From a virus: DNA of 64,000 nucleotides. The stretch is from the IMG/VR virus record IMGVR_UViG_3300028840_005911, positions 124,001 to 188,000 of that record. One strand, 5' to 3'. Made by a program: the position numbers and the translations under genes. The number at the start of each line of letters is the position of its first letter. The stretch's first letter is position 1. Shown here in pieces: positions 20,260-50,333 of this stretch. The notes below the pieces were generated by a model, which worked only from the letters and a program-made list of their open reading frames with translations, searched no databases and had not been told where the DNA came from.

Positions 20260-21384
20260 CTAGTACTGCTGCACTGCGGGGAAATGCAACCCGTCATCTA
20301 CCCTGTTGTTGATGGCACCGAGGTCCTCCTCAGCGCTCGGAATCTTGGCCTCGAACCCGGTGTCGGTGGCCGTGGGGCGAACCGAACCGCGATAGAGCTC
20401 GAGCTTCCGGCAGGAGGCGATGTTGATGATGCCGATTGCGATGTCCTCCCAGCTCTGCCAGGTGATGACGTTCGCGATCTTGTCGATGTAGAACTTCGTG
20501 TTGTTCAGGATGTAGAACTTCCCGAAGAACTGCGGAGCGGTGAACACGTACACGTTGCCGGTACGCAGGATGTCCGTCTTCACTGTGCGGATCACCTTGC
20601 GGCCGAGCAGGGTGTTGTACTTGTACCCGTCCACGACGGTCTCGCTCTGGATGCGGTCACCGAAGTCCTCGACGGTCCACTGGAGCACATCGTCGTGGTC
20701 CCCCTCGGTCAGGAGAACGCGCTCGCTGCGCAGACGATTGTTGTCCAGGAGCTTGAAGAGGTTCACGAAGTCCGGGCGCTGGATCGGACGAACGGTGAAG
20801 TCCGTACCGTCAGCCGCCAGGGCCAGCTCACCCTTGACCACGGAGACCACCTGCGCGTTGACATTGCCGGCGCGGATGTTGGTGGCGTTGTACTCCACGG
20901 TGGTCGTGGTGTTGGTCTCGGTCTGCAGAGCCTGCACACCGGCCTCGATGTGGCGCAGGAACTCGCGGTCCTCGATCTCCTGGATGTCCTTCACCGTGTT
21001 GTCCTCGATGACCTTGGTGATGGGCATCTCGTAGGCGAGGAGCTCCTGCTCGGGCTTCTCGAACTTCTCCGAGCTGATGGTGAAGAAGGGGACTTCGGCC
21101 TTGGGCGCACGCACGAAGCGGGCGGTAGGCTGGCTGCGGAAGTCAATCGCCATGGCGCGGGACTGGGGTTCCACGTCGACGATCTTCACCAGGGTGTCGT
21201 GGTTGGTGCTGCGCTGGCAGTCCGTTCGGGTCACCTGCTCGGGGGGCAGGATGTGACGGCTGAACGCCACTTCGCGCAGTCGGTCACGAATCCACGATCC
21301 GCCCAGCTCGGCGGTTTTGTCCTTGCCTTCCTGAGAGTCGAGTCTCTGATTGAAGAGCTCGATTGCTGCTTGTACCATACTCAT
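20260..21384 (-). CDS. major capsid protein (374 aa)
   Basis: Soluble alpha/beta protein of a size typical for HK97-fold coat proteins, with an N-terminal helical arm (VQAAIELFNQRLDSQEGKD). A long beta-hairpin-like stretch follows (PFFTISSEKFEKPEQELLAY), then a spine-helix-like segment (IQEIEDREFLRHIEAGVQAL) and a C-terminal beta-rich region. It lies after the protease and scaffold-like genes and before neck genes, is preceded by a clear AAGGAGAAT ribosome site and is followed by a large hairpin that suggests very high expression. The call rests on size, order and fold-like features; I did not recognise a specific family. Confidence 0.78.
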   Translation of the reverse strand: MSMVQAAIELFNQRLDSQEGKDKTAELGGSWIRDRLREVAFSRHILPPEQVTRTDCQRSTNHDTLVKIVDVEPQSRAMAIDFRSQPTARFVRAPKAEVPFFTISSEKFEKPEQELLAYEMPITKVIEDNTVKDIQEIEDREFLRHIEAGVQALQTETNTTTTVEYNATNIRAGNVNAQVVSVVKGELALAADGTDFTVRPIQRPDFVNLFKLLDNNRLRSERVLLTEGDHDDVLQWTVEDFGDRIQSETVVDGYKYNTLLGRKVIRTVKTDILRTGNVYVFTAPQFFGKFYILNNTKFYIDKIANVITWQSWEDIAIGIINIASCRKLELYRGSVRPTATDTGFEAKIPSAEEDLGAINNRVDDGLHFPAVQQY

Positions 21385-24906: not shown

Positions 24907-27714
24907 TCATGCCGATGTTCCACGAACGATTCGACCGCCGGCCTGCTCGAGCTCCTGGGCAGCTTGCTGAGCCTGCGGAGTCTTCATGATCTGACGGATT
25001 GCCGCTGCCCCACCCATTGCGGTCAGCCAGGGGTGATCCGCAATGAGCTTCGAGAGGATATTCAGATCCTCCCCTTGCTGAGCTTCTCCACGGAGGTGTG
25101 CAGAGTACATGAGGGTCAAGGGGATGGACCCCAACACGGCAAGGATAGTATTCCTGTCCGGGACCCGGATACCGCCTCGTAGAGCTGGTGGCAATTGAAT
25201 TTCCCCTACCTTGAAAATGTCGCTGTCCCTCATGTCGTAAAGACCGGCCTGTAGCTCCGGCTCTTCCGAAATGATCTCGGGTGCGTATGTCGCAGCCTTT
25301 ATCATCTCTCGTCGATACCAATTGTAAGCGGACGAAACTTTGGAGAGAAGGGGAGACTTGGAAATTTTCTCCGATACGTCCCTTTTTGGGGCAATGGTTA
25401 TGCGAACCACACGCCGTTCCATCACCGGCTGCGCGTAGGACCTCTCCTCCAAAAAGGGGAGAAGTTTCCGCATGAGGTCCTTTAGGAAATATTGAGGGCC
25501 GAGCTGGTCGCATAGGGGTGTTTCTCCAGAAGCGGGTCCGAATATCTCTCCCCGCCTGCCGAAGTGATCAGCGAGTCCTTTCTGACCCAGGCTGACCAGA
25601 ATGATTCTCTGGAACTCCCTTGGACGGAGCACCATCCCCATAAGAGATGGCGTTGAGAGCGCACTTCGTAGGTCACCTTTTCCAAGCTCATCCAACACCT
25701 CTATCGGAAGGTCGGGTTCCCTCTCAGCCAGCAGCGGGGAAACTTTCCCTATCGCCGCCTCCGGGCCGATTTCTTTTACTATCTCAGCCCACTTTTTGTG
25801 GGAAGCCAGCTTGAAAGGATTGATGGCCGCTGTCTTTTCCATGTTAGAGAAGCTGTCACCGAGGCCGGAGCCCACATGGTAGGTCTCTTCTCCACTCACC
25901 TTGTTCCTCCAGATCCTTTCCCGGCGGACGGGCTTCTTTGAGGAAAATAGGTCCTCGAGCTTGATATCCGCAGCTATCTTCTCCAAGGATGCCACCTTCT
26001 CACCCTTAACCTCTCCCTTGATAACCTTCTTGAAGGTCGTCATCGGCATGATGGTCATGGACCTGAAGAACTTTGGGCTGTCGTAGTGCTTCAGATAGGC
26101 ACCCTTAGCCTCCTCCGGGGAGTTGAAGCCCAGCATGGCCTTGTCCTCATCGTACTTCCCAGTCTTGACGAAGTTCTGGTGGACGATATACGCGAACTTG
26201 GCCTTGGGGTTCGGGCCTAGGTAGACGTCCAGGCGGTCCTTGTCGGTCCCCTTCGTGCCCAGGATCTCGCCGTAGGCGTTGATCATCTTCGTCTTCCAAC
26301 CCTTACCCTCACGAACACTGCCAGGCTTGTTCTCGATGTAGATCTTCAGCCCTTGGAAGACCGCAGTACCTTCGTAGGGGTACTCCTTCCTGTTTGGGGT
26401 CGGAGGCGGGCCGATCTTGATGGCCGCCGTCTTCTCGTCTTTCCCCTCGAAAAGGGGGCAGACGCCTCCAAGCTCGATTGGACCGTCCACCAGATCACAT
26501 CCCTGCGGCTCTATGAAGTGCTCGCAAACCCCGCACCTCTTGTTCTTGTCAGTCTCCGAGGTCGGCATATATCCGGCCTCATCTTTGCTATAGGGAGGGG
26601 TGGTACTGGTCTGGGCCACCTTCATAGGCGGGGTAAAAGGGTCCTCGATTTGGGTTTCTGATCCGTGTTTTGTGAGTATGAATCGTGCAAGGTTCTTGCT
26701 GAGGTTCATCCTCTTAGCCACGGTCCTGAGATCCTCGGTAGAGACTTCCTTCGAGGCCGGGGGTGGAGGAGCCAACTTCTCGATCTTGACCTTCCCCTTG
26801 CCATCTGTCTCGAGCCCGCTGACCAGGTAGTGTTTCTTCGGTTCACCGGTAGCTTCACGAGCCTTCTCAATCTTGAAGGAGGATACGGAGGCGGCTTTCA
26901 TGAGTCCCTCCTCGGGCATTGGTCCGTACAGATGGTCGGCATCCACAATCGATTGTGGGAGATGCTCGACAGAAGCCAGCTTAGACATAACCCAGGAGGT
27001 CTTGTCTGCTCCGATGAAGACGAAGCTGATATCGAAGAACCTGGGGTACGGGTTGTCCACCGATACCTGCCTGCCGTCAGGAAAGATGTGGCCCATCCCA
27101 TATTTCTTGATATGGATGCAGTAATCCTTACGTGTCTTGGATTTGTTCCCACAGATCTCGCAGATGTCGTACGGCGTCCTGCAGCCCATCGATGTCGAAG
27201 GATAGTGACCGTCGTCTATCTTGGCTACTACCTCTGCAGCGCCATTGCACAGGGCCTTGTCTCTGTTGACCAGAACAACTAGTTCGACGCGCTTCATAGC
27301 CGGGTTGAGACAAGCCACTTGGATGGTGCCGAAGGCTCTGTTGGGATCTTTATTGCGGTGGTGAGCAAAAGCGTGAGCTGTATAGAATGTCCAATACCCG
27401 TAGGGAGGGATTATCTTGTTGGTGAAGTCGTCTATTCCGTGGTCTTTCGGACCATGGGTACGGCAGTCGTGCTCCAGTACGGGCCACCTGAACCGGTCGC
27501 CGTTGACGTTACTCCCGTAGTACTCTGATGCGCCGAGGGCGTTCACCAAGAGAGCGATGTTCTCCATGTCTGACTTGTAGGTGCCAAGCCAGTCTTGGAT
27601 CTCCGGCATGACCGGACCGGCCAGCTTCTTGATAGACTGCCCCGGCCGGAAGATCTGCACGAGCGGCTCCCCGTCTGGAGCTACGCCCGAAAATGTGGAG
27701 AGCTTGGTCAGCAT
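24907..27714 (-). CDS. prohead protease fused to a pyrophosphatase-like domain (935 aa)
   Basis: The N-terminal 200 residues carry the capsid-maturation serine protease pattern: SNVNGDRF near 68-75, the histidine segment AHAFAHHRNKDPNRAFG (H114-H119), the strand VELVVLVNR, and the serine segment YPSTSMGC (171-178), followed by a zinc-binding CEIC and YCIH group. Residues about 430-560 match the phage inorganic-pyrophosphatase-like (InPase) domain: KDRLDVYLGP, then a GKYDEDKAMLGF segment, then the YLKHYDSPKFF region. A helical C-terminal third with hydrophobic segments follows. KxA elements (SLEKIAAD, MEKTAAI) flank the InPase domain and may be self-cleavage sites. The protease would cut the tagged head proteins nearby. 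Protease identity is good; the InPase call is moderate. Confidence 0.8.
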   Translation of the reverse strand: MLTKLSTFSGVAPDGEPLVQIFRPGQSIKKLAGPVMPEIQDWLGTYKSDMENIALLVNALGASEYYGSNVNGDRFRWPVLEHDCRTHGPKDHGIDDFTNKIIPPYGYWTFYTAHAFAHHRNKDPNRAFGTIQVACLNPAMKRVELVVLVNRDKALCNGAAEVVAKIDDGHYPSTSMGCRTPYDICEICGNKSKTRKDYCIHIKKYGMGHIFPDGRQVSVDNPYPRFFDISFVFIGADKTSWVMSKLASVEHLPQSIVDADHLYGPMPEEGLMKAASVSSFKIEKAREATGEPKKHYLVSGLETDGKGKVKIEKLAPPPPASKEVSTEDLRTVAKRMNLSKNLARFILTKHGSETQIEDPFTPPMKVAQTSTTPPYSKDEAGYMPTSETDKNKRCGVCEHFIEPQGCDLVDGPIELGGVCPLFEGKDEKTAAIKIGPPPTPNRKEYPYEGTAVFQGLKIYIENKPGSVREGKGWKTKMINAYGEILGTKGTDKDRLDVYLGPNPKAKFAYIVHQNFVKTGKYDEDKAMLGFNSPEEAKGAYLKHYDSPKFFRSMTIMPMTTFKKVIKGEVKGEKVASLEKIAADIKLEDLFSSKKPVRRERIWRNKVSGEETYHVGSGLGDSFSNMEKTAAINPFKLASHKKWAEIVKEIGPEAAIGKVSPLLAEREPDLPIEVLDELGKGDLRSALSTPSLMGMVLRPREFQRIILVSLGQKGLADHFGRRGEIFGPASGETPLCDQLGPQYFLKDLMRKLLPFLEERSYAQPVMERRVVRITIAPKRDVSEKISKSPLLSKVSSAYNWYRREMIKAATYAPEIISEEPELQAGLYDMRDSDIFKVGEIQLPPALRGGIRVPDRNTILAVLGSIPLTLMYSAHLRGEAQQGEDLNILSKLIADHPWLTAMGGAAAIRQIMKTPQAQQAAQELEQAGGRIVRGTSA

Positions 27715-29888: not shown

Positions 29889-30236
29889 GTGGGAAGGATT
29901 GTGTATGATGGAGAGACAGTTGTTGATCGGGAAGAAGCCCTTGAGATTTTAGGGATAAGTAAGCGCTGGCTGTGGGATCTCGTCAAACAAGACATCATTT
30001 TGACGGTCAAGCTCCCGGAGGAGAAGAAACCTTACTACTACCTGAGAAGCATTGAGAGTTACCAGAGGGCCAAGAAGCTCATCAAGAACCGTACCGGGGC
30101 AATCATCCGACTTCTCACCCGGGTAGACGAGCTCGAGCACAAAATGTCCTGGTTGATGAACAATATGCCTGCCCCGATAGAAGAGTACCACGATATCCGG
30201 AAGATCATGAACAAGAACCACCCCGACCTTTTCTAA
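29889..30236 (+). CDS. MerR/excisionase-like HTH protein (115 aa)
   Basis: The N-terminal 60 residues read VVDREEALEILGISKRWLWD, then a beta-wing (IILTVKLPEEKKPYYYLRSI). This is the winged helix-turn-helix pattern of MerR-like and excisionase (helix_turn_helix_17) proteins. A C-terminal helix pair (AIIRLLTRVDELEHKMSWLM) could dimerise. The GTG start at 29889 follows CGGAGG by eight bases. It is a lone plus-strand gene in the late block with its own promoter, converging on the terminase gene with a four-base overlap. A regulator of late transcription or a DNA-architectural factor is likely. Confidence 0.75.
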   Translation: MGRIVYDGETVVDREEALEILGISKRWLWDLVKQDIILTVKLPEEKKPYYYLRSIESYQRAKKLIKNRTGAIIRLLTRVDELEHKMSWLMNNMPAPIEEYHDIRKIMNKNHPDLF

Positions 30237-32041
30237 CGGTCGATGTCCCACTCCTCCTTCTCGCCGCTATCCTTGTCCAGCTCCTTGACTGGTGTGATGA
30301 TGTCCGGCCTCTTCCTGAAGTGGAACGACGCCAGGAAACAGAACAGGGCTGAGTGAAAAGAGTCATCGGGACATCCCGGGGCGTGCTTGTACACATCCAT
30401 ACGCAGTCTGTCATTGTACTCTGAGAATATATTCAGGAAGTCTCCAGCGAAAGGTTCCTCAAACTCCTCCCATCTCGGGTATCGAAAGACGTCCCTTCTC
30501 TTGACCGCATTAAAGTAGTCCGACATCACCTCGGTCCGGTGGCAGACGTACCTCGGCACTCCGAGCTGGGGGTCCCACTTGATCTTTCGCTTGACGTTGC
30601 CAACCCACTGGTACTTCTTGATCTTCTCAGCTCCGTACTGCCGCACTAGGGTATCGTTGGGCCAGAAACCACCACCATAGTCTGCGCCAACGTAGGACAC
30701 GTTGAACTTGTCGATGAGCCTCATGATCTCTCTGATCTGAACCTCCGGCTCTGACTCGAGGCCTTCGAACCTCTTGAAGTAGAAGTACACGAACTCCTCC
30801 CCGGATGTGATAGGGAGGTACGCAGCGAGACAGACAACGGTGAAGGCGTTCTCACTACCTCCGCTCCAGTCGATACCCATGAACACCGGGTAGCCGGAGG
30901 AGTACTTCTCGGCCACCTCCAAGTAGTGTTGCATCGATAACTTGCTCCAGCAGTTGTCCCTGACATCCTGCCGGGTGAGTGGACGGGTGCCGGAGTCATA
31001 GCTAAGTCCGAGAACCTCGTTGTAGAACTTCGCCCTGCTGTACTGCCTCTGCTTGTGGAGGATGTCATCCCACTCTACCCAGGGGACCATGAGCTGAGGA
31101 ATGCGGTAACCTTCAAACGGTTTCTCGACCCGGGGCTTCGGATTCAATGAAGCCCATTGCGCGTCGGGGTCCATCGGATGTATGGGTTCTCCGCACTTGT
31201 CACAGATGAGCCCTTCCTTGCCGATGTTATCTTCAGCCAGGATGTTCCAGTGCCACGACCCCTTGTTCTTTGGGGTGCCATGATGCCGGCAGGGTACCAC
31301 CCACTCGTTCTGGGTAGAGAACTTGGACCAGTAGTGCTCAATGGTACCGTCCAAAGACTTCGGGGTACCGCTGTAGGTGTGGAGCTTGTAGGATGAGTGG
31401 GATGCACACTCCTCGATAACCGGGATGTTATCCAAGAGAACATCCTGGAGCTCATCTATGTTTATCATGTCGGCTGGGACACCTCGAACGCGGTCCGCAT
31501 TAAGGAAGGCAAACCTCATCGTGATCTGACTACCGTTGATGAACTTCTTCTCGAGAATGTTGGACAAGAGTTTGGTGTTGGTCAGGGATCTGATCTCGGG
31601 GGAGACCTCTATCGGCTCTTTGACCCTGTCCCGGCTGAACACTTTGGTCTGGGTGTTGGACGGGCTGACGTAGAGGGATCTGAAGTAGGGTATCAGGCTA
31701 CAGTACGTTAGTATCCTGTTGCCCACGTAGCTTGATTTTTCAACTTGGCGTCCCGCCTTGAGGAGCAGCCTCTTATGGCTAGTGTCATAGATGGGGCGGA
31801 GATATCTACGCTCCTCGAAGTTGAAGCTCTTGAGCTCCCCTCCGGCAGGTATCTTTATAGCAAACTCAGTGAACCTCGAGGGTGGTACGTCCAGCTTGTC
31901 GGTATTGTCCAAGTCTAGGAGGTCTTCACCTTCTTGTGCAACAGGGCAGTTGGAATACCATTTGAATGCCTCATCCTCATCGATGGAGGCTCTCTTCTTA
32001 TGAGATGTAGCTTGACCAAACTGTCCCGAGGTCACTATCAT
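30233..32041 (-). CDS. terL: terminase large subunit (602 aa)
   Basis: DNA-packaging ATPase-nuclease. The ATPase Walker A is AGRQVEKSS (about residues 93-101), related to the SRQxGKT form of T4 gp17 but with Glu in place of the usual Gly. Walker B is MINIDELQDV near residue 190 and the coupling segment is HTYSGTPKS. The C-terminal RNase H-fold nuclease shows VFMGIDWSGG, SYVGADYGGG and CPDDSFHSAL with its acidic residues. A zinc-like CDKCGEP lies between the two domains. The length is typical. No small subunit was recognised nearby. The start ATG is only about 30 bases from the divergent plus-strand gene at 32071. Confidence 0.95.
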   Translation of the reverse strand: MIVTSGQFGQATSHKKRASIDEDEAFKWYSNCPVAQEGEDLLDLDNTDKLDVPPSRFTEFAIKIPAGGELKSFNFEERRYLRPIYDTSHKRLLLKAGRQVEKSSYVGNRILTYCSLIPYFRSLYVSPSNTQTKVFSRDRVKEPIEVSPEIRSLTNTKLLSNILEKKFINGSQITMRFAFLNADRVRGVPADMINIDELQDVLLDNIPVIEECASHSSYKLHTYSGTPKSLDGTIEHYWSKFSTQNEWVVPCRHHGTPKNKGSWHWNILAEDNIGKEGLICDKCGEPIHPMDPDAQWASLNPKPRVEKPFEGYRIPQLMVPWVEWDDILHKQRQYSRAKFYNEVLGLSYDSGTRPLTRQDVRDNCWSKLSMQHYLEVAEKYSSGYPVFMGIDWSGGSENAFTVVCLAAYLPITSGEEFVYFYFKRFEGLESEPEVQIREIMRLIDKFNVSYVGADYGGGFWPNDTLVRQYGAEKIKKYQWVGNVKRKIKWDPQLGVPRYVCHRTEVMSDYFNAVKRRDVFRYPRWEEFEEPFAGDFLNIFSEYNDRLRMDVYKHAPGCPDDSFHSALFCFLASFHFRKRPDIITPVKELDKDSGEKEEWDIDR

Positions 32042-38712: not shown

Positions 38713-39837
38713 CTATTTGACTTTTACCTTCTGAGCCAGGAGACCAGATAGCTTGGCCCCCAAAGCTGAGATGGACGCATTCTGTGTGAGAGGGGCACCA
38801 AAAGAGGTAGCCTGGTTGATGCTAAGGTAACCTAAGAGCTCGGCAAGGAAGGTCACCATCTCAGTCCCCAGTATAGCAGGGTTGGTCGCATCCGGGCCGC
38901 CTATGTTGGTCATCGGCGCCGTAATGGTCTTCGTTCCGGTGACATTCTCTTTGCTGTCCCCACCGACTGTCTCTTCCAGGTTCGCCGCAGCGTCGAGAAG
39001 AATATCCGTTCCAGCCGTCACCTCTACGTTGCCCTGTTGGGCCTCGACCAGGACGTCCGCCTCTTCGGACAAGACAGAGACGGTCTGCTTGGCGGCGATG
39101 CTGCAATTTCCCTCCATGTCCCAGGTGACGTTGCCCGTTTTGGTTATCGTCAACCGAACTTGCTGTTGTCCATCGTCAAGACCTGAGTCATTTACCACCA
39201 AGTCTAGTGTAGTCTCACTGTCCTCCCCGTGGGAACCTACTGTAAGTGTTGCGATATGCTTGGGGTCGTTCGCAAGGTTCTTCGCGAGGAGACCAAACTG
39301 TGTCGGGGAGTCCCCTGTGGTGGTCTGGTCATCCCTCTGTGTTTCCCAGTACAGCTTACCCCCGAAGGTCTCGAGGTTGTAATTCTCGCAGAAATCCCTG
39401 ATGAAGTTCCTGACCGGGATGTAGATCCTCTGGGCTATGCTGGTGGCACCGATCTGGATGGCTCCACCCCTACGAAGAACGATGAAGTTGTCATCCCTGG
39501 TCCGGAACATGATGTCTCCGGGGTTCAGGGACTGTCTGTTTCCTCGGTAGCTTGCATTGTCCTCGTCGTATGGGGACTGGAATCCCATGATGAACGGGGT
39601 GGAGAACTCCCCATCGCTGGGCTTACACAACCAGACCAGGGCACCAACCTCCGGCTGGGCATACATTCCTTCGCCACCCATGTAGTGGAAGTAGGGAGAG
39701 GAGACCTGGATATCGAAGAACCTCTTCCCGGCATGTTCGGTGATCAGGTCCACGGACCAGTCTTCGATGTTCACGTTGACGATGCGGGCCGTCTCTATGA
39801 CCGCCGGTACGAAACCTGTCTCAAGTAGTGATGCCAT
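38713..39837 (-). CDS. baseplate spike protein (gp5/gpV-like) (374 aa)
   Basis: The first 110 residues resemble the OB-fold of baseplate spike proteins (VNVNIEDWSVDLITEHAG, then GMYAQPEVGALVWLCKP, then PFIMGFQSPYDED). Residues about 210-330 form short strands with regular turns (DVLVEAQQGNVEVTAGTDIL, then TKTITAPMTNIGG), consistent with the triple-stranded beta-helix needle. The C-terminal part is helical. It lies directly after the RNA polymerase gene with a seven-base gap and forms part of the baseplate hub module. The role is puncturing the outer envelope. Confidence 0.7.
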   Translation of the reverse strand: MASLLETGFVPAVIETARIVNVNIEDWSVDLITEHAGKRFFDIQVSSPYFHYMGGEGMYAQPEVGALVWLCKPSDGEFSTPFIMGFQSPYDEDNASYRGNRQSLNPGDIMFRTRDDNFIVLRRGGAIQIGATSIAQRIYIPVRNFIRDFCENYNLETFGGKLYWETQRDDQTTTGDSPTQFGLLAKNLANDPKHIATLTVGSHGEDSETTLDLVVNDSGLDDGQQQVRLTITKTGNVTWDMEGNCSIAAKQTVSVLSEEADVLVEAQQGNVEVTAGTDILLDAAANLEETVGGDSKENVTGTKTITAPMTNIGGPDATNPAILGTEMVTFLAELLGYLSINQATSFGAPLTQNASISALGAKLSGLLAQKVKVK

Positions 39838-39844
39838 GCGCTAC

Positions 39845-42800
39845 TCAATAGAGCCAGGGCTCTTCTGGGGTCCCATCAGAAAACTCTTTTCCGTAGGCCA
39901 TACCGGGGATCGGGTGGGTCCCATGAAGCATCGACTTCCACCCCTCTGCGGAGGCATCGAGCACGGTCTTCTTCAGGTTGGTCGCCTGCATCCTTGCCAA
40001 CCAGTCCTGATGCATGTCCTGCGACAGGACTGCTGTGCCCCGTAGAACAGGGTGGTACTTCACTGGCTTCTTGGCCCCCTCCACACTGTTGTACGACCTT
40101 ATCTTGGAGGTTGGGGCCAGATCTCCACGGAGGTACTCCGGGTGGTCTCCGGGGTCTACCACCTGACTGAGGTTGGTTAAGGACCTAACGAAGGTCTCTA
40201 TGTTCCTCCGCTTCACCGGGGACACGGCATCGTAGACGCCCTTCACCTCGTCGGTGATGTACCTCTGGACTGTCCCTATGTTGGTGAGGGGCAGGAGCTC
40301 GAGGGGATTCTTGGGGCCTGTGGAGAGTGCGTCGCCCTTTTTCACCTCAGCGCCTCTTCGAACCGTAAGCTCTCGTCTCGAGGGAACGAAGTGTCTCTTG
40401 TCTTCTACGTACACATTGTGCCCGCCGGCCGGGTCTTTCTCTATCTTCCTCACCTTCCCGCTGCTCTGGGACAAGGTGGCCGCACCAGGGAGGGTCTTGG
40501 GGAACTCGAGTAGCTGTTCTATTCTCTTGAACTGGTTCCCTGCCGTCGTGCTCTTGGCCCCTACGATGGACCCCTCGTGGAAAGCGGACATGGAAAGTTG
40601 GGACATCGGCTCTCCCATAGCCTGGGAAGCTATGACTCCAAGGTTGGTACCCTTCGGGTATACTTGACCGTCAGGACCAAGACCATAACACTTCGAACAC
40701 AATCCCTCACCGTGCGCGCACTTCAATGGCGTCCTTACTGGTATCTCACGAATCTTGTTGTTCTTCAACCTGTTGATGAGATCCATGTCAACGAGTGTCC
40801 CTGCGGGGATTACCCCCTTGTCCTTACCGACCTTCGATCCCAGGTTGACATCCTTGGCCGTGAACCTCCCAAGCGCATCTCTGTCGTTGATTGAAAGGGC
40901 GATGCCCTTCGCGGTCCCGCAGTCATCCGAGGTAACCATCTGGTTCATGGTGATGTTCATCATCTTTTTGGACATGAACCCGGGGTCTTTGGTCTGTTTA
41001 GTCCTCCCGATGATGCCCATGCGAGCCCCATGCATTGAGGCCCAGTAAGACCCTACGTCCAGACCTTCGGAGAAGGACTTGTTGATTGGTGTGAGGACAG
41101 GCTCACCTTTGGAATCCACTACCAGGGTGGGACCGAAGACGATCTGCTTGAACTGGTTCCAGTTGCCCCGGGCCCCGGACCGGATCCAGTCGTACATTCT
41201 GTTCTGTGACCTGTCCAACTGCGCCTTGCCCCTGTCTGAGATATCCTTCGCCGCGTTGGCATATATCTTTGCCAGCTCCTTTTCGAGCCTGGCCTTGTTG
41301 GATATCCTCCTCTTCGCGGACTTGGCATCCTTGTCGGCTCTTCCGAGCCTGAGATCGCGGTACCGAGTGTCGGCAACGAAGTCGTCCAATCCAACCGAGA
41401 GACCTGTGGAGTAGAAGTTGCCAAGGTCTTTGTACCTGCCTGCTGTCCCTGAGAAACTTTTCAGGTCTTCAGACGCTACCCTGCTAAGGAGATCGTGGAG
41501 CGTCTTCTTGTCCAAAACGGTCTTCTTGTCCGTAAGCAGCTTCTCGTCACGGAGATCTTCGGGAAGGGCCTGGTATAGCATGAGCCTGGCCACCGTCGTC
41601 TCCTTAGCAGGTGCTCCCAGCTTCTCGAGCTCAGAGAGCTTTGAGAGCTCACGGATCTTTATGAGGTCAGTCTCTGCTATCTCACCTTTCTGAACAGCCC
41701 TGGCAGCATCTGCGGCCGTGTCGTACACCTTACCGGTTCTCTTCCCAGTCTCGGTCAACTTGTACAATCCAAGCATGGCCTCCTGCCGGGGCGTGTACAT
41801 CAACAACCCGGTTGAGGGGCTGAACAGGTTGTTGGAGGGCATCATCTTCACGGTCTCGTCTACGGCTTGCTGGCTTACGGGAACGAAGGCCGACATGGTA
41901 TCACCGTCGAAATCCCCGCCAAATCCTGAAGTAACTAAGGGGTTTACCTTAATTGCTCTACCTTCGGTGAGTACAGGTCTGAATGCCTGGAGACCGTACT
42001 TATGCAGGACTGGGTCTCGCTTCATCATCACCGGGCGATCCTTGACCACATTCTCCAACGCCCGGATGGCGATTGAGCTGTTGGTCCTAATCTTGTCCAA
42101 GGCTTCTCCGGGAGTGTAGCCCATCCTCACCAGGTTGGCGGATACGAAGGGCTTGTAGATCTCCATGGCCGCCTTTCTTGGCAGTCCTACTTCGTCTAGT
42201 GCGAGGGAGGGCTCAGGGACAATTGTCCCTCGAGCCGACATATCCTGCCGCCGGCCGATGATGTTCTTCTGGAAGAATGCCTCCTTCGGAGACTTTCCGC
42301 CGGACTCTCCCCCCAGGGTGGAGGCGATGCCGCTGAGCTGACGTCCATACTGGGTCTTGCCTGTGAGAGCAAGGGCCCTCATACCATCGTACAAAGAGGA
42401 CACCAGCTTGTGGCGCTCTTCTTCCGGAAGACCTTTTGGGAAGTCACGCAGTTGATCGTTGACCTTTCCGATACCCTTGTATAGCCCATTGAGATCGTCG
42501 TAGTTGATATTCCCGTTGTCCATGATCGACACGGGTCGCATAGCCGGAGGCAGCACAGGTATCATGGAAGATGTGTAAGCCTCAACGGGGTTGAGCTCAG
42601 CCTTCTTCAGAGCCCGGAGGTATTTGATCTTCTTGTTTGCCTCGTCTAGCTTGGCACCTCTGAGATCCTTTACCTTCCCCTCCAGGGTTTTGAGATCCTT
42701 ATCGACATCCACCTTCTTCAGCAGGTCGACTATTACGGGCGCTCCGGTCTTCCCGTCTACGTCCTTCGTTCCCTCGAGCAGTCCTTGGAAATCCTTTGCC

Positions 42801-45800
42801 TTCAGACCGGTAAGGGTTCTGATGGGCTTCTCGAATATCGGAGTAGGCATTCTTTCCGCCAGTGGGAGGTGGGACCACTTGTCTCCCAGCCGTCCCTGAG
42901 GCCACGTGGTGCCTGTCACCTTGGGATCGAACAGTCCTCCCTTCTCTGGGATGATGGATCTTCCTCGACTGGTGCCCTTGAACGCCTTGCCGGCATCTTC
43001 TATGGGGCCGTTGCTCATCTTGAGAACTTCATCGTCGGTCAGTGGGGACAGCACCAAGGAGTTTCCATCCTTGGTCACATCGACCCCCATACCCTTTAGG
43101 TAGCCTTCGAACTTCTTATAGACGAACGGTATCTTCGGAGGGGGGATGGGCTCCCCATTTTGAAGAGCGAACCATACATCGTCGTTGAGATCAGACTTCA
43201 TGGTCTGCATCTCCCTGATGTTGTGCCGTGCACCATGGGCCAGCAGAGCGTACAGACCCATGGCATCCATGCTCTGACCGCTCGTCGGACCGCCACCCTT
43301 CGGGGTCAGGTTGACGTCGTACTTGTCCCGGGACCGTGCCTGAAGCTTCTTCTCCGCCACGTGGTGGAGCTTCAGGATGTACTGCTTTCCGGTCAGGACT
43401 TTCTCGTACTTCTTGTTGGTCTTCGGATCTACAAGGTCCTCGGTGTCTGACAGGCCGTGCTTCTTGAGCTCAGCCTTCATGTTCCTGACATAGTCCTTGT
43501 TGTCGGGGTCGAAGTTGTCCGCGACATAAGGCTTGCCGGTCTTCTCAGCTATCTTGGATGCGGCAGTCTCGAGTACCTGGCCGAGGTTCATTCTGCTGGG
43601 GATACCAGTCTGGTTGAGCAGGACCTCCATGTGGTTGCCGTCTTTATCCTGCGGCATCTCTCGGTCGGGGATGATGGCGGTGATGATGCCCTTGTTGGCA
43701 CTCCTGCCCACGATCTTGTCACCAATGATTGCCGGAGAGTCGGCGCGGAGATAGACGTTAGTTTGCTTCCCGTGCTTCACTACCTTTACCACCTTAGCCG
43801 GGTAGTCGTGCTCCCACGTTATGGGCCTCGGCTTCACCGGGGTGATAGATTTCTTGGGGAAGAACAGGTTGAGCATCTTCTGCTCTGGGGTGATCTCTTC
43901 CACCTTCAACTGACCGACCAAGAGATCTCCCGGTTCTACTGTCTCACCGACTTTGATAACGGCATCGTCGTCCAGCTTCTTGACCTGGTCCTTGGTGTAG
44001 GCGCCTGCTGTGTGTGCGGTGAACTTCTTCTTGTCGAGGATGACATTCTTCTCGGCAGTCACCCCCTCACGATGAAGATGCTGCGAGGTGAGCTTCTCAG
44101 CTGCCGACTCTGAGATGACTATCCCGTCCTCGTAGTTGTACCCCCTGTAAGGCATGTAGGCCGTCTTGAGAGAGGTACCAAGGGCAAACTTGCCGCCCTT
44201 GGTGAAGTTCGAGTCTGCTACGACCTGACCCTTCTTGACCTCGTCGCCTTTCTTGACCAGGGGGTTGGAATTGAGGAAGCTCTTGTTCTCATTGAGCGGG
44301 AAGTTGTCGTAGAGCTGGACCTCGTAGCGCTCTCCATCCTTTCCACGAATGATTATCCCGTCGTCCTTGACCTTCTCTACCTTTCCTGACACCGGGGAGC
44401 TGTGAGAGTTGAACCTCCCAACAGCCTGTTCGAAGGTAAGGTTACCTCCGCCCTTCACCTGGACCAGAGGCTCCTCCCTATGCTTCAGGGAGACGGCCTG
44501 CTCAGCCTGCTTTGAAGCCATCATGGCCCTGGTACCTTGGGTGTTCTGCAGGAATGGAATCATATTGGCAGAAAAGTCGAACATCCCCTTCGAAGACTCG
44601 AGGATGTAGTCTACCTGCCCTGGCACCAAAACAGAGATGTTCCCCTCCCTATCAGAGACCTTCACCTCTTTCTCCCTGGGGACAGGTTGGCCCCCAACCC
44701 ACTTGTACTGGTCCGGGAAGGCCAGGTTGGAGTGGAGGGCAGTGTAGGGGTCGATCTCTTCGTACTTCTGCTTCTTGGTATTGTAGGCCCGGATCTTCAG
44801 AGTGTTGCCATCCTTCTTTGCGCCCAGAGCCATCTGCAAGATGGTACCGGTTCTCTCGCTCTCCGGGGTTTGAATGCTGTCGATGAATCCGATGTGGCTG
44901 TTACTGACACCTTGCGCCTCCAAAGTTAAGGCGTGGGCGCTCATGATACCGTGCTCACCTCCAATTGTGGTCTTCCTGTTGCCATTCAGGAACCCCATCG
45001 GGTTGAGCTGCTCTGGTCTCTCAGAGATGACTGAGTTGGTGAAGAACCTCTTGATCTGACCTCCGAATAGCTCCGGGTTGACTACGGTCCGCACCTTGTT
45101 CGACTTATCGACTACGGTCTGCAGTTTCCCCGATATCTTCCTGCGGACATCCTTACTGAGCCTCTCGGTGAGAAGGTCCTCAGTGGAGTAGACATCCTTG
45201 AACTCGAGGGAGTCTCTATCGTCTGGCTCATCTTCCTGCCTCGAGACCTTGAGGATCTTGTGTGACCCGGTAAGGAGCGCCTCGCCTGTTACCTTGTTGA
45301 AAGGTTTACCGAGGGTGATCTTCGTGGAGTCCGGCCTGAGAGCTGTACCATCGAAGGCCTCAATGATCTTTTTCTGTGCCTCCTTCAAGTCGGTAGGGGC
45401 TTTCCCAGTGATGGCGCGGTACATCTTACGGATGTCGTTCTCAGGTTTTGCGGCCCTGTTGGCGGTCAGAAGCTCCTTACCCCACCTCTTCTCGATGTCA
45501 TCATCGGATACCCCCAAGGTCTTCAAGATAGGGTACAGACCGATTGACGAGCCACCGTATTTGATGCTCATCTTTTTGGTCTCGGGGCTGAACTCCATCG
45601 AGAACCCGCGCCCTTCCACGCCCTTGGCAAGGTTCCACTGAGAGGCGAGCTCACCGTTCTCCTTGATCCTGGTATAGACCCCGGACTTCAAACGCAGTTG
45701 GTTGGCCACCTGCCATTCATTGCCATCCACGATGTAGGTATACCGGCGGGTGATCTTGGGGATGCTCCCCACGTTTACAGTCTGTCTGTCCTTGATCTTA

Positions 45801-46036
45801 CCGGTCTTGTTGTCCACCAGAGAGACGTCTGCACGGATTGGTACCGTCCATGACCTGCCCTTTACCTTCGCATCTGTCTGGGTACGGATGTCGTCGATGT
45901 CCTTGTTGTCGTCCACCCACACCTTGTGGGCCACGACCGTGTTCTTTGCGCCCTTGACCGGGAAGTATTCCTCTACGGTCTTGGACATCCGGTCCTTGAG
46001 AACATTGAACGCACTTTCAGGGTGGATGTAGGCCAT
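39845..46036 (-). CDS. single-chain DNA-directed RNA polymerase, beta and beta' fused (2063 aa)
   Basis: Residues 1 to about 1020 correspond to bacterial beta: GGEHGIMSAHALTLEAQG and IQTPESERTG (rifampicin region, about 360-397), GYNYEDGIVISE near 635, GRSANKG near 777 and GIPSRMNLGQVLET near 805. Residues from about 1021 correspond to beta': EKGGLFDPKVTG, IPVLPPAMRPV, NIIGRRQDMSARG near 1262, LHKYGLQAFRPVL, the catalytic DFDGD at D1375-D1379, and a C-terminal KCAHGEGLCSKCYG zinc site. The trigger-loop entry GVIASQAMGEP lies near 1799. The N-terminal beta' zinc finger is missing. No alpha, omega or sigma gene is seen. AAGGAG precedes the ATG. The gene lies inside the structural block, so packaging in the virion is possible but inferred. 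Confidence 0.97.
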   Translation of the reverse strand: MAYIHPESAFNVLKDRMSKTVEEYFPVKGAKNTVVAHKVWVDDNKDIDDIRTQTDAKVKGRSWTVPIRADVSLVDNKTGKIKDRQTVNVGSIPKITRRYTYIVDGNEWQVANQLRLKSGVYTRIKENGELASQWNLAKGVEGRGFSMEFSPETKKMSIKYGGSSIGLYPILKTLGVSDDDIEKRWGKELLTANRAAKPENDIRKMYRAITGKAPTDLKEAQKKIIEAFDGTALRPDSTKITLGKPFNKVTGEALLTGSHKILKVSRQEDEPDDRDSLEFKDVYSTEDLLTERLSKDVRRKISGKLQTVVDKSNKVRTVVNPELFGGQIKRFFTNSVISERPEQLNPMGFLNGNRKTTIGGEHGIMSAHALTLEAQGVSNSHIGFIDSIQTPESERTGTILQMALGAKKDGNTLKIRAYNTKKQKYEEIDPYTALHSNLAFPDQYKWVGGQPVPREKEVKVSDREGNISVLVPGQVDYILESSKGMFDFSANMIPFLQNTQGTRAMMASKQAEQAVSLKHREEPLVQVKGGGNLTFEQAVGRFNSHSSPVSGKVEKVKDDGIIIRGKDGERYEVQLYDNFPLNENKSFLNSNPLVKKGDEVKKGQVVADSNFTKGGKFALGTSLKTAYMPYRGYNYEDGIVISESAAEKLTSQHLHREGVTAEKNVILDKKKFTAHTAGAYTKDQVKKLDDDAVIKVGETVEPGDLLVGQLKVEEITPEQKMLNLFFPKKSITPVKPRPITWEHDYPAKVVKVVKHGKQTNVYLRADSPAIIGDKIVGRSANKGIITAIIPDREMPQDKDGNHMEVLLNQTGIPSRMNLGQVLETAASKIAEKTGKPYVADNFDPDNKDYVRNMKAELKKHGLSDTEDLVDPKTNKKYEKVLTGKQYILKLHHVAEKKLQARSRDKYDVNLTPKGGGPTSGQSMDAMGLYALLAHGARHNIREMQTMKSDLNDDVWFALQNGEPIPPPKIPFVYKKFEGYLKGMGVDVTKDGNSLVLSPLTDDEVLKMSNGPIEDAGKAFKGTSRGRSIIPEKGGLFDPKVTGTTWPQGRLGDKWSHLPLAERMPTPIFEKPIRTLTGLKAKDFQGLLEGTKDVDGKTGAPVIVDLLKKVDVDKDLKTLEGKVKDLRGAKLDEANKKIKYLRALKKAELNPVEAYTSSMIPVLPPAMRPVSIMDNGNINYDDLNGLYKGIGKVNDQLRDFPKGLPEEERHKLVSSLYDGMRALALTGKTQYGRQLSGIASTLGGESGGKSPKEAFFQKNIIGRRQDMSARGTIVPEPSLALDEVGLPRKAAMEIYKPFVSANLVRMGYTPGEALDKIRTNSSIAIRALENVVKDRPVMMKRDPVLHKYGLQAFRPVLTEGRAIKVNPLVTSGFGGDFDGDTMSAFVPVSQQAVDETVKMMPSNNLFSPSTGLLMYTPRQEAMLGLYKLTETGKRTGKVYDTAADAARAVQKGEIAETDLIKIRELSKLSELEKLGAPAKETTVARLMLYQALPEDLRDEKLLTDKKTVLDKKTLHDLLSRVASEDLKSFSGTAGRYKDLGNFYSTGLSVGLDDFVADTRYRDLRLGRADKDAKSAKRRISNKARLEKELAKIYANAAKDISDRGKAQLDRSQNRMYDWIRSGARGNWNQFKQIVFGPTLVVDSKGEPVLTPINKSFSEGLDVGSYWASMHGARMGIIGRTKQTKDPGFMSKKMMNITMNQMVTSDDCGTAKGIALSINDRDALGRFTAKDVNLGSKVGKDKGVIPAGTLVDMDLINRLKNNKIREIPVRTPLKCAHGEGLCSKCYGLGPDGQVYPKGTNLGVIASQAMGEPMSQLSMSAFHEGSIVGAKSTTAGNQFKRIEQLLEFPKTLPGAATLSQSSGKVRKIEKDPAGGHNVYVEDKRHFVPSRRELTVRRGAEVKKGDALSTGPKNPLELLPLTNIGTVQRYITDEVKGVYDAVSPVKRRNIETFVRSLTNLSQVVDPGDHPEYLRGDLAPTSKIRSYNSVEGAKKPVKYHPVLRGTAVLSQDMHQDWLARMQATNLKKTVLDASAEGWKSMLHGTHPIPGMAYGKEFSDGTPEEPWLY

Positions 46037-46162
46037 GCCATCTCCTTAACCGGCGCTGCGTGGCACCTCGAAGACTCAACACGCCATAAATTCTACGAGA
46101 TTTCTCGGTATAAGAGAAGTGTATAGGAGAGTCATACTACTTTTCTTCAGACGAAAGGAGGT

Positions 46163-46732: not shown

Positions 46733-47007
46733 TACCAAAGAAGGCGGGCCCCAACAGTGTGGGGTGCGAGAACTGCGGAGAGGCATGTGAAGATGAAGTA
46801 ATCCTGTTCGTCCACATAGTAGAGGGGGAGGAGACCGAACTACCATTCTGCAGCGCCGAGTGTTGGCAAGAGTACTTCGACGTACTGCCGGCCACAGAGC
46901 TCAAAGAGAAGTATCGCGAAGAGGCGAACTTCATCTACAACCAAGTCTGTCCGGCATGCAAAGCCAGGTTCAGGAAGAGAGTGTACAAGGAGGTGAATGG
47001 GGGTTAG
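46720..47007 (+). CDS. zinc-binding early protein (95 aa)
   Basis: Three cysteine pairs are visible: CENCGEACE near residue 16, CSAECW near 44 and CPACKARF near 77, enough for one or two zinc ions. It overlaps the previous gene by 13 bases and the portal gene on the other strand by four bases. The layout CxxC-x(24)-CxxxC resembles MYM/FCS-type fingers. Function unknown. Confidence 0.6.
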   Translation: MAGVIPKKAGPNSVGCENCGEACEDEVILFVHIVEGEETELPFCSAECWQEYFDVLPATELKEKYREEANFIYNQVCPACKARFRKRVYKEVNGG

Positions 47008-50000
47008 ACCATCGCGGCTTCAGGGCCGCGTCTCGGGGGCTTATTCTCTGGAAGGGGGAGAGCGGCAGAGTTCGTATGAGCCCCGGACCTGGAATTGAGA
47101 ACTTGAACCACCAGGCTATAGAGCTGGGGATTTCCTTGACGGAGGTTCGCCAGCTCAGCCTGTTTCTGGTTATCGGGGAGAGCATCGAGCCAAGCAACAA
47201 TCCTGTTGGCTATGTCCAGCACGCTCATCTGTGGGCCGGAAGCGTCCAAAGGTGACTGGGCGGCCTCCATAGGCGGGGGCTGCTCTTCTTGAGGAACCAT
47301 ATCAGAGACAGGGGGTACCATACCCATTCGGTTGGCCATCCCCTGCTCTTGGACCATCATCTGCCCCATTGCGGCGGGGCTTGCGGCACCAGGTTGTCCG
47401 GCAGCCATCATACCCATCTGTTGCATCTGATCAGCAGCTTGTGGGTCCATGGGTGGCTGTCCGGCGGCCTGGGCCTCGAGCATGGACTTCTGTGCTCTTA
47501 GCTGGTACTTCTGGATGACCATCTGAGACTCACCCTGAATGGTGGCCTGGCCGATAGCCTGCTGTCTTTGAGCCTCGAGCATCTTGACACGCTCGTCGTC
47601 CATTCTCTTCTGCTCGGCATCGAGATCCCAGTCGGTGTCCTCCATGAGAGACCTGTCAGAGAGCTTGCCTGCCTGGTTGAGCTGCAGATGGAACGCGCTC
47701 CTCTGGAGGTCGTCTGCCATCTTGAACTTCTTATATCTCGGGGCGACCGTACGCCATCCCATGAATGCGGCGATCTTCGGGATGATGAAATGCTTAACCA
47801 TTCGGAGGCGGTCTGACTTCTCGTCCAAGAACTTGTTCTCCAGCATACGGAGGGAGACATTGGATCCCGAGAAGCTGAGGCCACCGAAGACGAGCTCAAT
47901 CGGAACACCCATTCCGGCGACGATGTGCTCGAGCCAGACACGGTACTCCTGGGAGAGGAGAAGAGCCTTGCCATCACCGCCGAGGGTCTGCTGGTTGACA
48001 GGGATAGGCATTATGGGGATGTAATTGTTGTCCAAACGCCATCTGATGAGCTCCCGCTCCATCTTGTTGCGCCAGCTCCCTAGGTTGACTGAGCTGTACA
48101 CATCTGAACTTGGCCCCGCAGACTGAGGGAACAGGATGCGAAGAGGAACTATATGTTCAACTGCTATGCTATTTTTCGTAGCTACCCCAGGGCAACAGAA
48201 GGTTGTATCCTCGGTGATCTTAAAATCGATGTAAGTGTCCTCTTCTACTTCCTCTATGGCACACACCCTGGTGGCGAAATATTCCTTCCAAAAGAATCCA
48301 CTTTTACCGGAAGTCACTTCGATGGTAGTAGCTCTGTCTTTGCTCCAAAGATCCAACATCCTGTCCTTGGACGGGCCGGTTAACATGACATGGAAATGCT
48401 CATTTCCACCTTTGATGGTTCTGCCACTGGGAAGAATACTGTCTTTAGTGGTGAAAGATCGGACGGTGGCTATACACCCTAAATGTAGACACATCCTGTA
48501 GGAATCATAGGCCAGGTCTCTACTAGAGGTAGATAGTGTGGCGGATTTTTCCCTGACATGTCCATCGGCTTCGAACAGCCCCTTCAGAAACGCAGCTTTC
48601 ACTTCGTCTGAGGCGTGCAAGATATGCTCGGGGACCTTCTTGTCTGTTGCTGTCCCAGGTACCAACCCTTTAATTATGTGTCGGGCAATAGTATTTGATA
48701 ATACGACCGGGCTCACCGCCACATTCTTTTCTTCTAAGGTGCAGTCCACTTCGAACACCCTGTGAACGGCTGATATAAGCTCTTCGGTGTAGTAACTCGG
48801 GTCATCACTTCCTATAGAGAACTCGACGTGCCGCGCACCACAGCTACCATCCCCAGCGTACCACCCAAGAATGTACCCTAGATCCTCGTCCATTTTCAGT
48901 TTGGACGGGAACCGGTTAGGTAGCCTTCCTTCTTTGGTGTACCTCTTGGCTGTCTTTTCTGGAGTAGTGTTTCCAAGCTCCTTACCGGACTCCAACCTCT
49001 CGAAAGCTTCGGCGGTCTCAAGAGAGCAGCCTGGGTAAACATAGCTGTCTGTACCCTTAATGCCGGACACCTCTGAAACATCTATCTCGGTAACGTCTGT
49101 ACGTAGCTCCCTTGGGTAAAGAACATAATCCCCTACGGAGATCTGTCCTGCGGGGCATACGTACTCCTCGTAGAGGTGAGGGTTCCTCAAGATCACCGTA
49201 GAAATCTGTTTCTCCTTCGTATCCTTTCTCCTGTTCACATCGTTCCTGCCTATAGTTAGCACAGGATGGTTTGGAGAATAGACCGATGGAAATGCCCTTA
49301 GGCCAGTAGGAGTTATTTTTACACCTATCTCGTCCTCCCTGGAATCCCTATACCACTTGTCCTCAACAGGCTGCCACCTTCCCCTGTGGGTACGAACGAT
49401 ATCCCCAACCTTCACGTCATCGGCAGTTTTCAGACCATCGATGGTCTCGATTAGGGTTTCAGGGGAGACGCACTCGTTCGCTTTTTTCAGAACCTGTAGG
49501 TAGAAGGTATCCTTGAGCACGGGGAGGATCATAGGAAGCCCCCAGCCTTTGTCCTTCTGTGCGATGCTGGGCCGCTTCATGTGGTACAGATTGTCTTTGC
49601 TGAAGAGCAGCGACTTGTTGGACTTGACAGCATCGATGAAAGGCTGCGCCACCCTCTCGATGGTCTCTTTTTTACCTAGCCGGATACCGTTGGCCAGGTT
49701 CGGGGGAAGCGTGAAGTAGTATCTGTTCTCCCCGGTGGCTTCGTTGTGCTCGATGGTGATGTACTCTGGGTTCCACCTGATGAGACGGATGTCCCGCACA
49801 GATCGGACCGGCATATCCACCACTCTGTACGGACCGTAACGGCCACAGGAGCATTCCCCTTCGAACTTGAAGTCCCTGAAGACGTACTTGGTCCTCTCCA
49901 CCTTGGTCTGCTTCCCACACGATTTGCACACGAGATACTTCTGGAACGGGAAGTGGATAGAGATAAATGCGTTACCGTAGGCGTGGTAGTCGATCCCTGT

Positions 50001-50333
50001 CTCGATCTCGAACTGCTTGAACTCGAGGATGTCGTTGAACAGGAATTCCCACTTCGTCCGTAAGGCAACGCTGTCCGAGTCGAGAATGAGATCGGTGACC
50101 GGGTACTCGGCCATCTTGTAGACGATGGCGTTGATGATCGGGTTGGTCAGGAAGTAATACCTGCACCACCTGAGCATTGCCTTGAACGAGCTCGGCAGGT
50201 AGGTGTGGGCCAGGTCGAAGAACGGAGATGGATACCTTACCGCACCAAGGGCCTCACTAGTCAGAGACCTACCACTGTTACGTGAGAACCTGAAGGACCC
50301 CGCCGGTCCGAAGTCGATTGGAGTAACACTCAT
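47004..50333 (-). CDS. portal protein precursor with intein (1109 aa; 675 aa after splicing)
   Basis: The N-extein (residues 1-287) has portal features: a helical start, then WEFLFNDILEFKQFEIETG, then DYHAYGNAFISIHFP, a four-Cys insertion (CKSCG with CSCG), and RLIRWNPEYITIEHN. The C-extein continues SIAVEHIVPLRILFPQ and ends with a Gln/Met/Pro-rich disordered tail. Residues 288-721 are an intein (separate entry). The insertion lies after NE at the conserved junction before SIAVEHI. The start overlaps the upstream gene by ATGA. The portal forms the vertex ring through which DNA enters and leaves the head. Confidence 0.9.
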   Translation of the reverse strand: MSVTPIDFGPAGSFRFSRNSGRSLTSEALGAVRYPSPFFDLAHTYLPSSFKAMLRWCRYYFLTNPIINAIVYKMAEYPVTDLILDSDSVALRTKWEFLFNDILEFKQFEIETGIDYHAYGNAFISIHFPFQKYLVCKSCGKQTKVERTKYVFRDFKFEGECSCGRYGPYRVVDMPVRSVRDIRLIRWNPEYITIEHNEATGENRYYFTLPPNLANGIRLGKKETIERVAQPFIDAVKSNKSLLFSKDNLYHMKRPSIAQKDKGWGLPMILPVLKDTFYLQVLKKANECVSPETLIETIDGLKTADDVKVGDIVRTHRGRWQPVEDKWYRDSREDEIGVKITPTGLRAFPSVYSPNHPVLTIGRNDVNRRKDTKEKQISTVILRNPHLYEEYVCPAGQISVGDYVLYPRELRTDVTEIDVSEVSGIKGTDSYVYPGCSLETAEAFERLESGKELGNTTPEKTAKRYTKEGRLPNRFPSKLKMDEDLGYILGWYAGDGSCGARHVEFSIGSDDPSYYTEELISAVHRVFEVDCTLEEKNVAVSPVVLSNTIARHIIKGLVPGTATDKKVPEHILHASDEVKAAFLKGLFEADGHVREKSATLSTSSRDLAYDSYRMCLHLGCIATVRSFTTKDSILPSGRTIKGGNEHFHVMLTGPSKDRMLDLWSKDRATTIEVTSGKSGFFWKEYFATRVCAIEEVEEDTYIDFKITEDTTFCCPGVATKNSIAVEHIVPLRILFPQSAGPSSDVYSSVNLGSWRNKMERELIRWRLDNNYIPIMPIPVNQQTLGGDGKALLLSQEYRVWLEHIVAGMGVPIELVFGGLSFSGSNVSLRMLENKFLDEKSDRLRMVKHFIIPKIAAFMGWRTVAPRYKKFKMADDLQRSAFHLQLNQAGKLSDRSLMEDTDWDLDAEQKRMDDERVKMLEAQRQQAIGQATIQGESQMVIQKYQLRAQKSMLEAQAAGQPPMDPQAADQMQQMGMMAAGQPGAASPAAMGQMMVQEQGMANRMGMVPPVSDMVPQEEQPPPMEAAQSPLDASGPQMSVLDIANRIVAWLDALPDNQKQAELANLRQGNPQLYSLVVQVLNSRSGAHTNSAALPLPENKPPRRGPEAAMV
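48171..49472 (-). mobile_element. LAGLIDADG intein inserted in the portal (434 aa)
   Basis: Self-splicing protein element. Splicing block A is CVSPETLIET (Cys1 at portal residue 288) and block B is YSPNHPVLTIG. The endonuclease carries two dodecapeptide motifs, LGYILGWYAGDGS near residue 485 and LKGLFEADGHV near 584, so it is of the LAGLIDADG type and may be active. Block F/G is DFKITED, then CCPGVATKN followed by extein Ser722. The penultimate residue is Lys in place of the usual His. The DNA looks more AT-rich than flanking portal sequence, as expected for a horizontally moving element. Confidence 0.92.

Follow-up and report, generated by a model that had tools for sequence, protein, structure and literature searches.

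Tailed phages of the mReC group encode bacterial-like beta and beta' subunits of RNA polymerase (RNAP) that lie on a branch apart from those of cells (PMC7481178, Weinheimer and Aylward 2020). That study reports no fusion of the two subunits, required the motif NADxDGD, and gives the capsid as PF07068 and the terminase as PF03237 (PMC7481178). A June 2026 review describes jumbo-phage RNAPs as enzymes without homologues of alpha, sigma or omega (PMC13282480), and the RNAPs of crAss-like phages, P23-45 and YonO are highly diverged, with standard sequence phylogeny said not to apply to them (PMC10770324). Here we describe a phage lineage in which beta and beta' form one polypeptide. Its nearest cultured relatives are phage Arash (OQ632216) and the Vibrio phages D69, D148 and D181, whose RNAPs belong to the same clade and have the same beta-to-beta' fusion. 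A literature search for a fused beta-beta' phage enzyme, with preprints and most subscription journals outside its scope, found nothing on point.

The window analyzed is a stretch of 64,000 nucleotides, positions 124001-188000 of a 192,446-base virus record. On its minus strand a single uninterrupted ATG ORF (39845..46036) with a good ribosome-binding site ahead of it (AAGGAGATGGCATG) encodes a 2063 aa chain that Pfam and a PDB sequence search identify as a beta-beta' RNAP. The Pfam matches run in the order Rpb2 domains 3, 6 and 7, then Rpb1 domains 1-5 (best 3.3e-58), and the PDB search matched bacterial beta' with E=2.9e-115. The beta-like half spans residues 1 to about 992 (43061..46036, minus strand), as placed by the Rpb2 domains and by alignment to E. 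coli and B. subtilis beta, and the beta'-like half begins at about residue 993 (SLVLSPLTDDEV; 39845..43060, minus strand), as placed by the Rpb1 domains and an alignment of the seam. The seam itself is direct: the beta C-terminus PPPKIPFVYKKFEGYLKGMGVDV leads almost straight to the beta' N-terminus SLVLSPLTDDEVLKMS, and the variable tails of the bacterial subunits are absent there in the alignment to E. coli and B. subtilis. The landmarks PESERTG (residue 391), GYNYEDG (632) and GIPSRMNLGQ (811) on the beta side are followed by GRRQDMSARG (1261), DFDGD (1375) and GEPMSQLSM (1808) on the beta' side. ORF, Pfam order and residue positions thus agree with the initial annotation, which had claimed one 2063-residue chain in the order beta then beta' carrying all of these landmarks. 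An assembly artefact or frameshift as the source of the single chain is ruled out by the many independent contigs with the same ORF.

The catalytic residues of the chain are highly conserved. They include the beta active-site lysines K774 and K782 (E. coli K1065 and K1073; 43691..43717), the catalytic DFDGD loop at residues 1375-1379 (41900..41914) and the trigger loop GEPMSQLSMSAFHEGSIVG with H1820 (E. coli H936; 40559..40615), all on the minus strand. The three catalytic Asp, both beta lysines, and the equivalents of beta' R425 and H936 are invariant in 64/64 clade members. In two relatives, L011 and L039, the trigger loop is interrupted by an intein. The N-terminal zinc cysteines of beta' (E. 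coli C70, C72, C85, C88) are present in 0/64 members, which extends to the whole clade the loss of the N-terminal zinc finger first noticed in the window, and the C-terminal zinc cysteines (C814, C888, C895, C898) are kept in 63/64, the window's chain included. Alignment also shows that the beta flap tip is shortened compared with bacteria. The bacterial flap tip holds sigma region 4, so the contact with sigma must differ from the bacterial one. In the rifampicin pocket of the window's chain four residues are changed (D516E, H526G, R529K and S531T in E. coli numbering), and from these changes early transcription by the phage RNAP would be predicted to resist rifampicin.

Structure prediction against bacterial RNAP, as the initial annotation had proposed, was run with AlphaFold2 on residues 560-1700 together with 34 relatives. 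The resulting model (pLDDT 82.9, pTM 0.72) had bacterial beta' chains as its best PDB matches, with a best E of 7.6e-44. Its best viral match was a protein of 1127 residues, the length of the Rhizobium phage RHph_Y65 beta' subunit. Each fused-lineage record tested carries one RNAP, counted as one Rpb2_6 match per record, and a search for a second Rpb2_6 match in the window's genome found none. Record G013 gives two RNAP matches, both from a single gene that an intein interrupts.

The single chain is not peculiar to this record. Of the 212 related stretches that an IMG/VR search returned we kept the 80 best, and we find the same single chain on well over 50 IMG/VR contigs, mostly beside a portal gene; pooling with a second scan gives 121 single-chain loci, some of which repeat the same contig. 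Among bacterial and archaeal genome assemblies only four RNAP fragments matched, all in metagenome-derived assemblies. Across a large phage clade the single-chain RNAP is the norm and no one-off fusion. Some apparent splits and matches were set aside in this survey. The fragments in L082, L170 and L185 form one frame when TGA, which falls at tryptophan positions, is read as sense; L101, a candidate second type of split, and the fragments of L298 were likewise not counted, each being one frame if a lone TGA is read as sense, a reading that is unsure. Several phage-collection matches labeled as Staphylococcus, Listeria or Enterococcus phage appear to be host rpoBC contamination, and we left them out of the phage evidence.

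We built a maximum-likelihood tree under a mixture model from fused and split phage enzymes and six bacteria, a bacterial set that does not contain Helicobacter or Wolbachia. The fused and cut phage enzymes are united in one clade (97 bootstrap, 93 SH-aLRT, 98% of 200 bootstrap trees) and the six bacteria form a separate one (100/100 in the maximum-likelihood tree), with the separate-gene phages YerA41, Carin-5, L236, L244, L250 and L256 outside both. Two other trees agree with this result. The window's enzyme is not nested in bacteria, so the tree gives no sign of the recent bacterial capture for which this phylogeny had been suggested as a check. Arash and the Vibrio phages are cut at one place within beta', at about residues 1461/1481 of the window's chain, and this cut appears as one change on the first of the two other trees. 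In the second of them the deepest branches of the fused clade are single-chain (L141, L152 and L153, then L070, L075 and L176). One cut site, one change and single-chain deepest branches together indicate that the subunits fused once and were then cut once, and we consider this order of events, one fusion first and one later cut within beta', to be likely. In that second tree L211, a long single-chain branch, groups with the cut enzymes; its placement is unsure.

The RNAP gene lies within a block of structural genes on the minus strand. Upstream is a portal protein of 1109 aa (47004..50333), a homologue of Arash gp204 (2e-53) that includes an intein of 434 aa with Hint and LAGLIDADG matches (48171..49472), starting CVSPETLIE and ending ATKN before S. 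Directly downstream is a spike or hub-like protein (38713..39837) with weak matches to DUF2345 (E 0.0035) and to baseplate-hub PHROG 430 (E 0.0047). The placement between portal and spike genes given in the initial annotation is therefore firm on the portal side and weaker on the spike side. The terminase large subunit (30233..32041; homologue of Arash gp1, PHROG 675 at 2e-59) and the major capsid protein (20260..21384; homologue of Arash gp226, 6e-35, PHROG 2522) are encoded on the same strand, and the genome as a whole has Arash homologues of capsid, portal, terminase, tail and sigma proteins. A portal homologue is near the RNAP in 71/85 loci, several of the others ending at a contig edge, and a spike/hub-like homologue is near it in 54/85.

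The suggestion that the RNAP is a virion enzyme gains support from Arash, for which the proteome of phage particles was analyzed and both RNAP and sigma were detected (PMC10585845). Arash Gp206 gave 3516 spectra and 128 unique peptides, more than any other virion protein (PMC10585845); it is annotated as beta, and by sequence comparison we find that it contains beta joined to the N-terminal part of beta'. The rest of beta', Gp216, gave 1210 spectra and 40 unique peptides, and the sigma factor Gp10 gave 467 spectra and 24 unique peptides at 100% coverage (PMC10585845). Normalized by length, which makes spectral counts a rough measure of amount, these are 231, 200 and 200 spectra per 100 aa for Gp206, Gp216 and Gp10, with the portal at 152 and the capsid at 434. 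Primase and ligase were detected with only two unique peptides each (PMC10585845). The particle list holds 116 proteins (PMC10585845) and clearly includes carry-over, and the authors themselves allow for carry-over of abundant proteins (PMC10585845). We therefore regard the Arash proteome as strong but not conclusive support for a virion RNAP. For the window's phage packaging is inferred by analogy with this relative, which is about 32% identical and has a cut enzyme, and from the conserved portal-RNAP synteny.

The initial annotation saw no sigma gene, which is correct for the window; elsewhere, the genome encodes a 252 aa sigma factor that belongs to the Arash Gp10 family (G000:50868-51626, minus strand). 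It is 27% identical to Gp10 and sits in a run of genes matching the order of Arash gp6-gp14, most of which were detected in virions (PMC10585845). A family member is found in 18/20 long records, the two without it being contigs of 139 and 150 kb. A 15-member profile of the family matches RpoS over regions 2-4 at 4.6e-15, and Sigma70 region 3 (Sigma70_r3) is matched by 15/15 members. Alpha (PF01000), also reported as not visible, was found in 0/20 related records, as was omega (PF01192), with control genomes positive in both searches. This sigma probably binds the window's RNAP.

An unbiased count of the words that precede genes put GGTATAAG at the top in the window's genome, with 13 occurrences in upstream windows against 0.84 expected. 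The whole genome has 18 copies compared with about 2 in Markov simulations, and 15/18 are intergenic by simple gene calls. Most of the sites lie 23-70 nt ahead of a start codon, and most fall at 80-122 kb, a region of small genes; an AAAAT-like element is found 18-21 nt upstream of them. One such site (46107..46114, plus strand), with an upstream AAATT, points away from the RNAP gene. The same procedure again placed GGTATAAG at the top in G002 and in Arash, where nearly all sites are on the strand of the non-structural genes. Counts exceed those of the reversed control in most of the clade (18 to 4 in the window's genome, 31 to 5 in Arash, 33 to 8 in G002, 22 to 6 in G013); enrichment was absent from the clade members D69, G006, G007 and G009 and from four phages with other RNAPs. 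No TTGACA was seen upstream of GGTATAAG, and the conserved part is GG, not TGn. A literature search for GGTATAAG as a phage promoter, again with preprints and most subscription journals outside its scope, found nothing on point. From its position and enrichment we infer that GGTATAAG may serve as a promoter; the Gp10-family sigma is a candidate to recognize it. Two sigma-region-4-domain proteins (G000:81500-82393 and 95264-95773) are each encoded downstream of GGTATAAG sites, which suggests a cascade.

Taken together, we think it probable that the lineage uses an alpha- and omega-independent single-chain RNAP, packaged with its Gp10-family sigma, to transcribe early genes from GGTATAAG promoters. 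The chain and sigma would be packed together in the particle as a two-protein holoenzyme, and both would enter the cell along with the phage DNA. Early non-structural genes would then be transcribed from (G/T)AAAAT followed after about 15 nt by GGTATAAG, with no need for the host RNA polymerase, and the early products would include the two sigma-region-4 proteins, which may redirect later transcription. The fusion of beta to beta' could stand in for the role of alpha in assembly. We lean, with less assurance, toward the broader reading that this is a widespread lineage with the simplest known sigma-dependent bacterial-type RNAP: one sigma and one chain of ~2063 residues, carried in the particle and paired with a conserved promoter of their own, would do without alpha and omega and serve as the one enzyme throughout infection.

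Other readings of these data differ in which enzyme acts and when. The RNAP could be made during infection for middle or late genes and be present in Arash particles by carry-over, as raised by the Arash authors (PMC10585845), or as an assembly by-product; that each genome has one RNAP, unlike phiKZ, would fit a post-infection enzyme. We find this improbable, since peptide coverage of the Arash RNAP is far above that of the replication proteins and per residue similar to that of capsid and portal, its core and sigma occur in similar amounts, the gene is found among structural genes and next to the portal throughout the clade, and GGTATAAG precedes non-structural genes. A somewhat more credible, though still unlikely, reading is that GGTATAAG is used by the host RNAP with host sigma-70 at an extended -10, given that TATAAG resembles TATAAT, or through one of the two phage sigma-4-domain proteins, which do lie downstream of such sites. 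The conserved GG in place of TGn, the lack of an upstream TTGACA, and the sharing of the motif among phages with quite diverged sequences, while four phages with other RNAPs are not enriched, argue against this reading.

Dependence of the chain on host alpha, omega or sigma would make it a hybrid enzyme; a bacterial-type fold would in principle admit host subunits, and neither alpha nor omega is encoded in any of the 20 records examined. This is more doubtful still than the carry-over reading, as the phage sigma is conserved in 18 of those 20 records and is in the particle in Arash, phiKZ-group RNAPs function without alpha and omega (PMC13282480), and the part that alpha plays in assembly could be taken over by the fusion. 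A fused bacterial rpoBC like that of Helicobacter or Wolbachia, if captured recently, would account for the closeness to bacterial RNAP and for the shared beta-then-beta' order, but we give such a capture almost no weight: the fused enzymes of phages group in a single deep clade (97/93) apart from that of the bacteria (100/100, in a tree without Helicobacter and Wolbachia), and close relatives in bacterial genomes amount to the four fragments in metagenome bins.

The packaged, sigma-dependent single chain that we favor resembles several described systems in part. Its beta and beta', like those of the mReC phages, resemble the bacterial subunits and branch apart from cellular ones. The mReC motif NADxDGD differs from GGDFDGD in the window's chain, while relatives L010 and L011 have NADFDGD. 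The mReC capsid PF07068 matched 0/20 records in a search whose positive control was also silent, and a search for the mReC terminase PF03237 in the window's phage did not find it. A contig from the metagenome of the mReC examples (3300017989) encodes beta' and beta in separate genes and has two RNAPs, and another contig from that metagenome, L300, is single-chain; the window's clade may overlap with mReC.

The Arash group shares with the window's phage a portal beside the RNAP and homologous capsid, terminase and sigma, and Arash itself shares the GGTATAAG motif, for which D69 is not enriched. The difference is in the enzyme: the Arash/Vibrio chain is cut within beta' (residues about 1461 to 1481 of the window's chain) into two genes and has a degenerate trigger loop, whereas the window's chain is whole, and the cut form is derived relative to the single chain. 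The clade is a case, rooted on bacteria, of fusion first and splitting later, and Arash, cultured on a Salmonella host, makes packaging, host independence and the promoter testable.

With crAss-like phi14:2 gp66, P23-45 gp96/gp64 and YonO, the window's enzyme shares two barrels in one polypeptide, and P23-45 gp96 is also a virion RNAP. Unlike these, it aligns directly to bacterial beta and beta' (E=2.9e-115 for beta') and, if our reading is true, would be near enough to bacterial RNAP for residue-by-residue comparison. phiKZ and AR9 likewise have cellular-type RNAPs without alpha or omega, including a virion RNAP. However, their RNAPs consist of four or five polypeptides and there are two enzymes, compared with one ORF and one RNAP per record here, and they have no sigma homologue recognizable by sequence (PMC13282480), whereas the window's genome has one. 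The presence of sigma sets the lineage against the picture of jumbo-phage RNAPs drawn in the recent review (PMC13282480). If the proposed mechanism holds, two polypeptides suffice for a working transcription machine of the bacterial type, with no alpha scaffold.

The RNAP reading frame of three related IMG/VR loci (L082, L170 and L185) is open only when TGA is read as sense, and the TGA codons of these three fall at tryptophan positions of the polymerase. The same reading is needed at L101 and L298; however, each has a lone TGA, within an intein in L101, and both are ambiguous, as is L083, whose lone stop codon is TAG rather than TGA. The frames of L082, L170 and L185 indicate that phages of the fused-RNAP clade may use a TGA-recoded code.

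We also observed intein-like inserts of ~330-410 aa in the RNAP chains of L011, L039/L040, L048, L063, L092, L099, and L101. They occupy several different sites, the majority at or close to the active site. The trigger loop holds an insert in L011 and L039, and L039 has another at the TPE motif. In the beta part, inserts lie in the GNK lysine region (L063, L099, L101) or at the GIP motif (L048), whereas in L092 the catalytic DFDGD loop is interrupted. In the window, the portal gene is interrupted by an intein (48171-49472, minus strand) that is 434 aa long and shows both Hint and LAGLIDADG signatures.

Near the capsid gene, the minus strand of the window encodes a 935-aa protein with an inorganic pyrophosphatase domain (24907-27714; PF18823, 8e-35). 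Its partial homologue in the cultured Salmonella phage Arash, gp222, is a virion protein (PMC10585845). The Arash gene directly 3′ of that for the beta′ C-terminus encodes a DNA helicase, gp217, which is also found in virions (PMC10585845), with 243 spectra per 100 aa, per residue approximately the level of the RNAP.

Outside the window, the plus strand of the whole record (G000) encodes two sigma-region-4 proteins, at G000:81500-82393 (domain match 2e-18) and G000:95264-95773 (6e-12), both preceded by sites of the promoter-like motif GGTATAAG. The product of the former carries a Cro/XRE-like helix-turn-helix at its N-terminus, ahead of the sigma-region-4 domain.

In the sister-lineage phages of record G020 and of IMGVR_UViG_3300033145_001320, the single contig that holds both L236 and L262, beta′ and beta are separate genes and each phage has two RNAP sets. 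The presence of two RNAP sets is a feature that these phages share with phiKZ.
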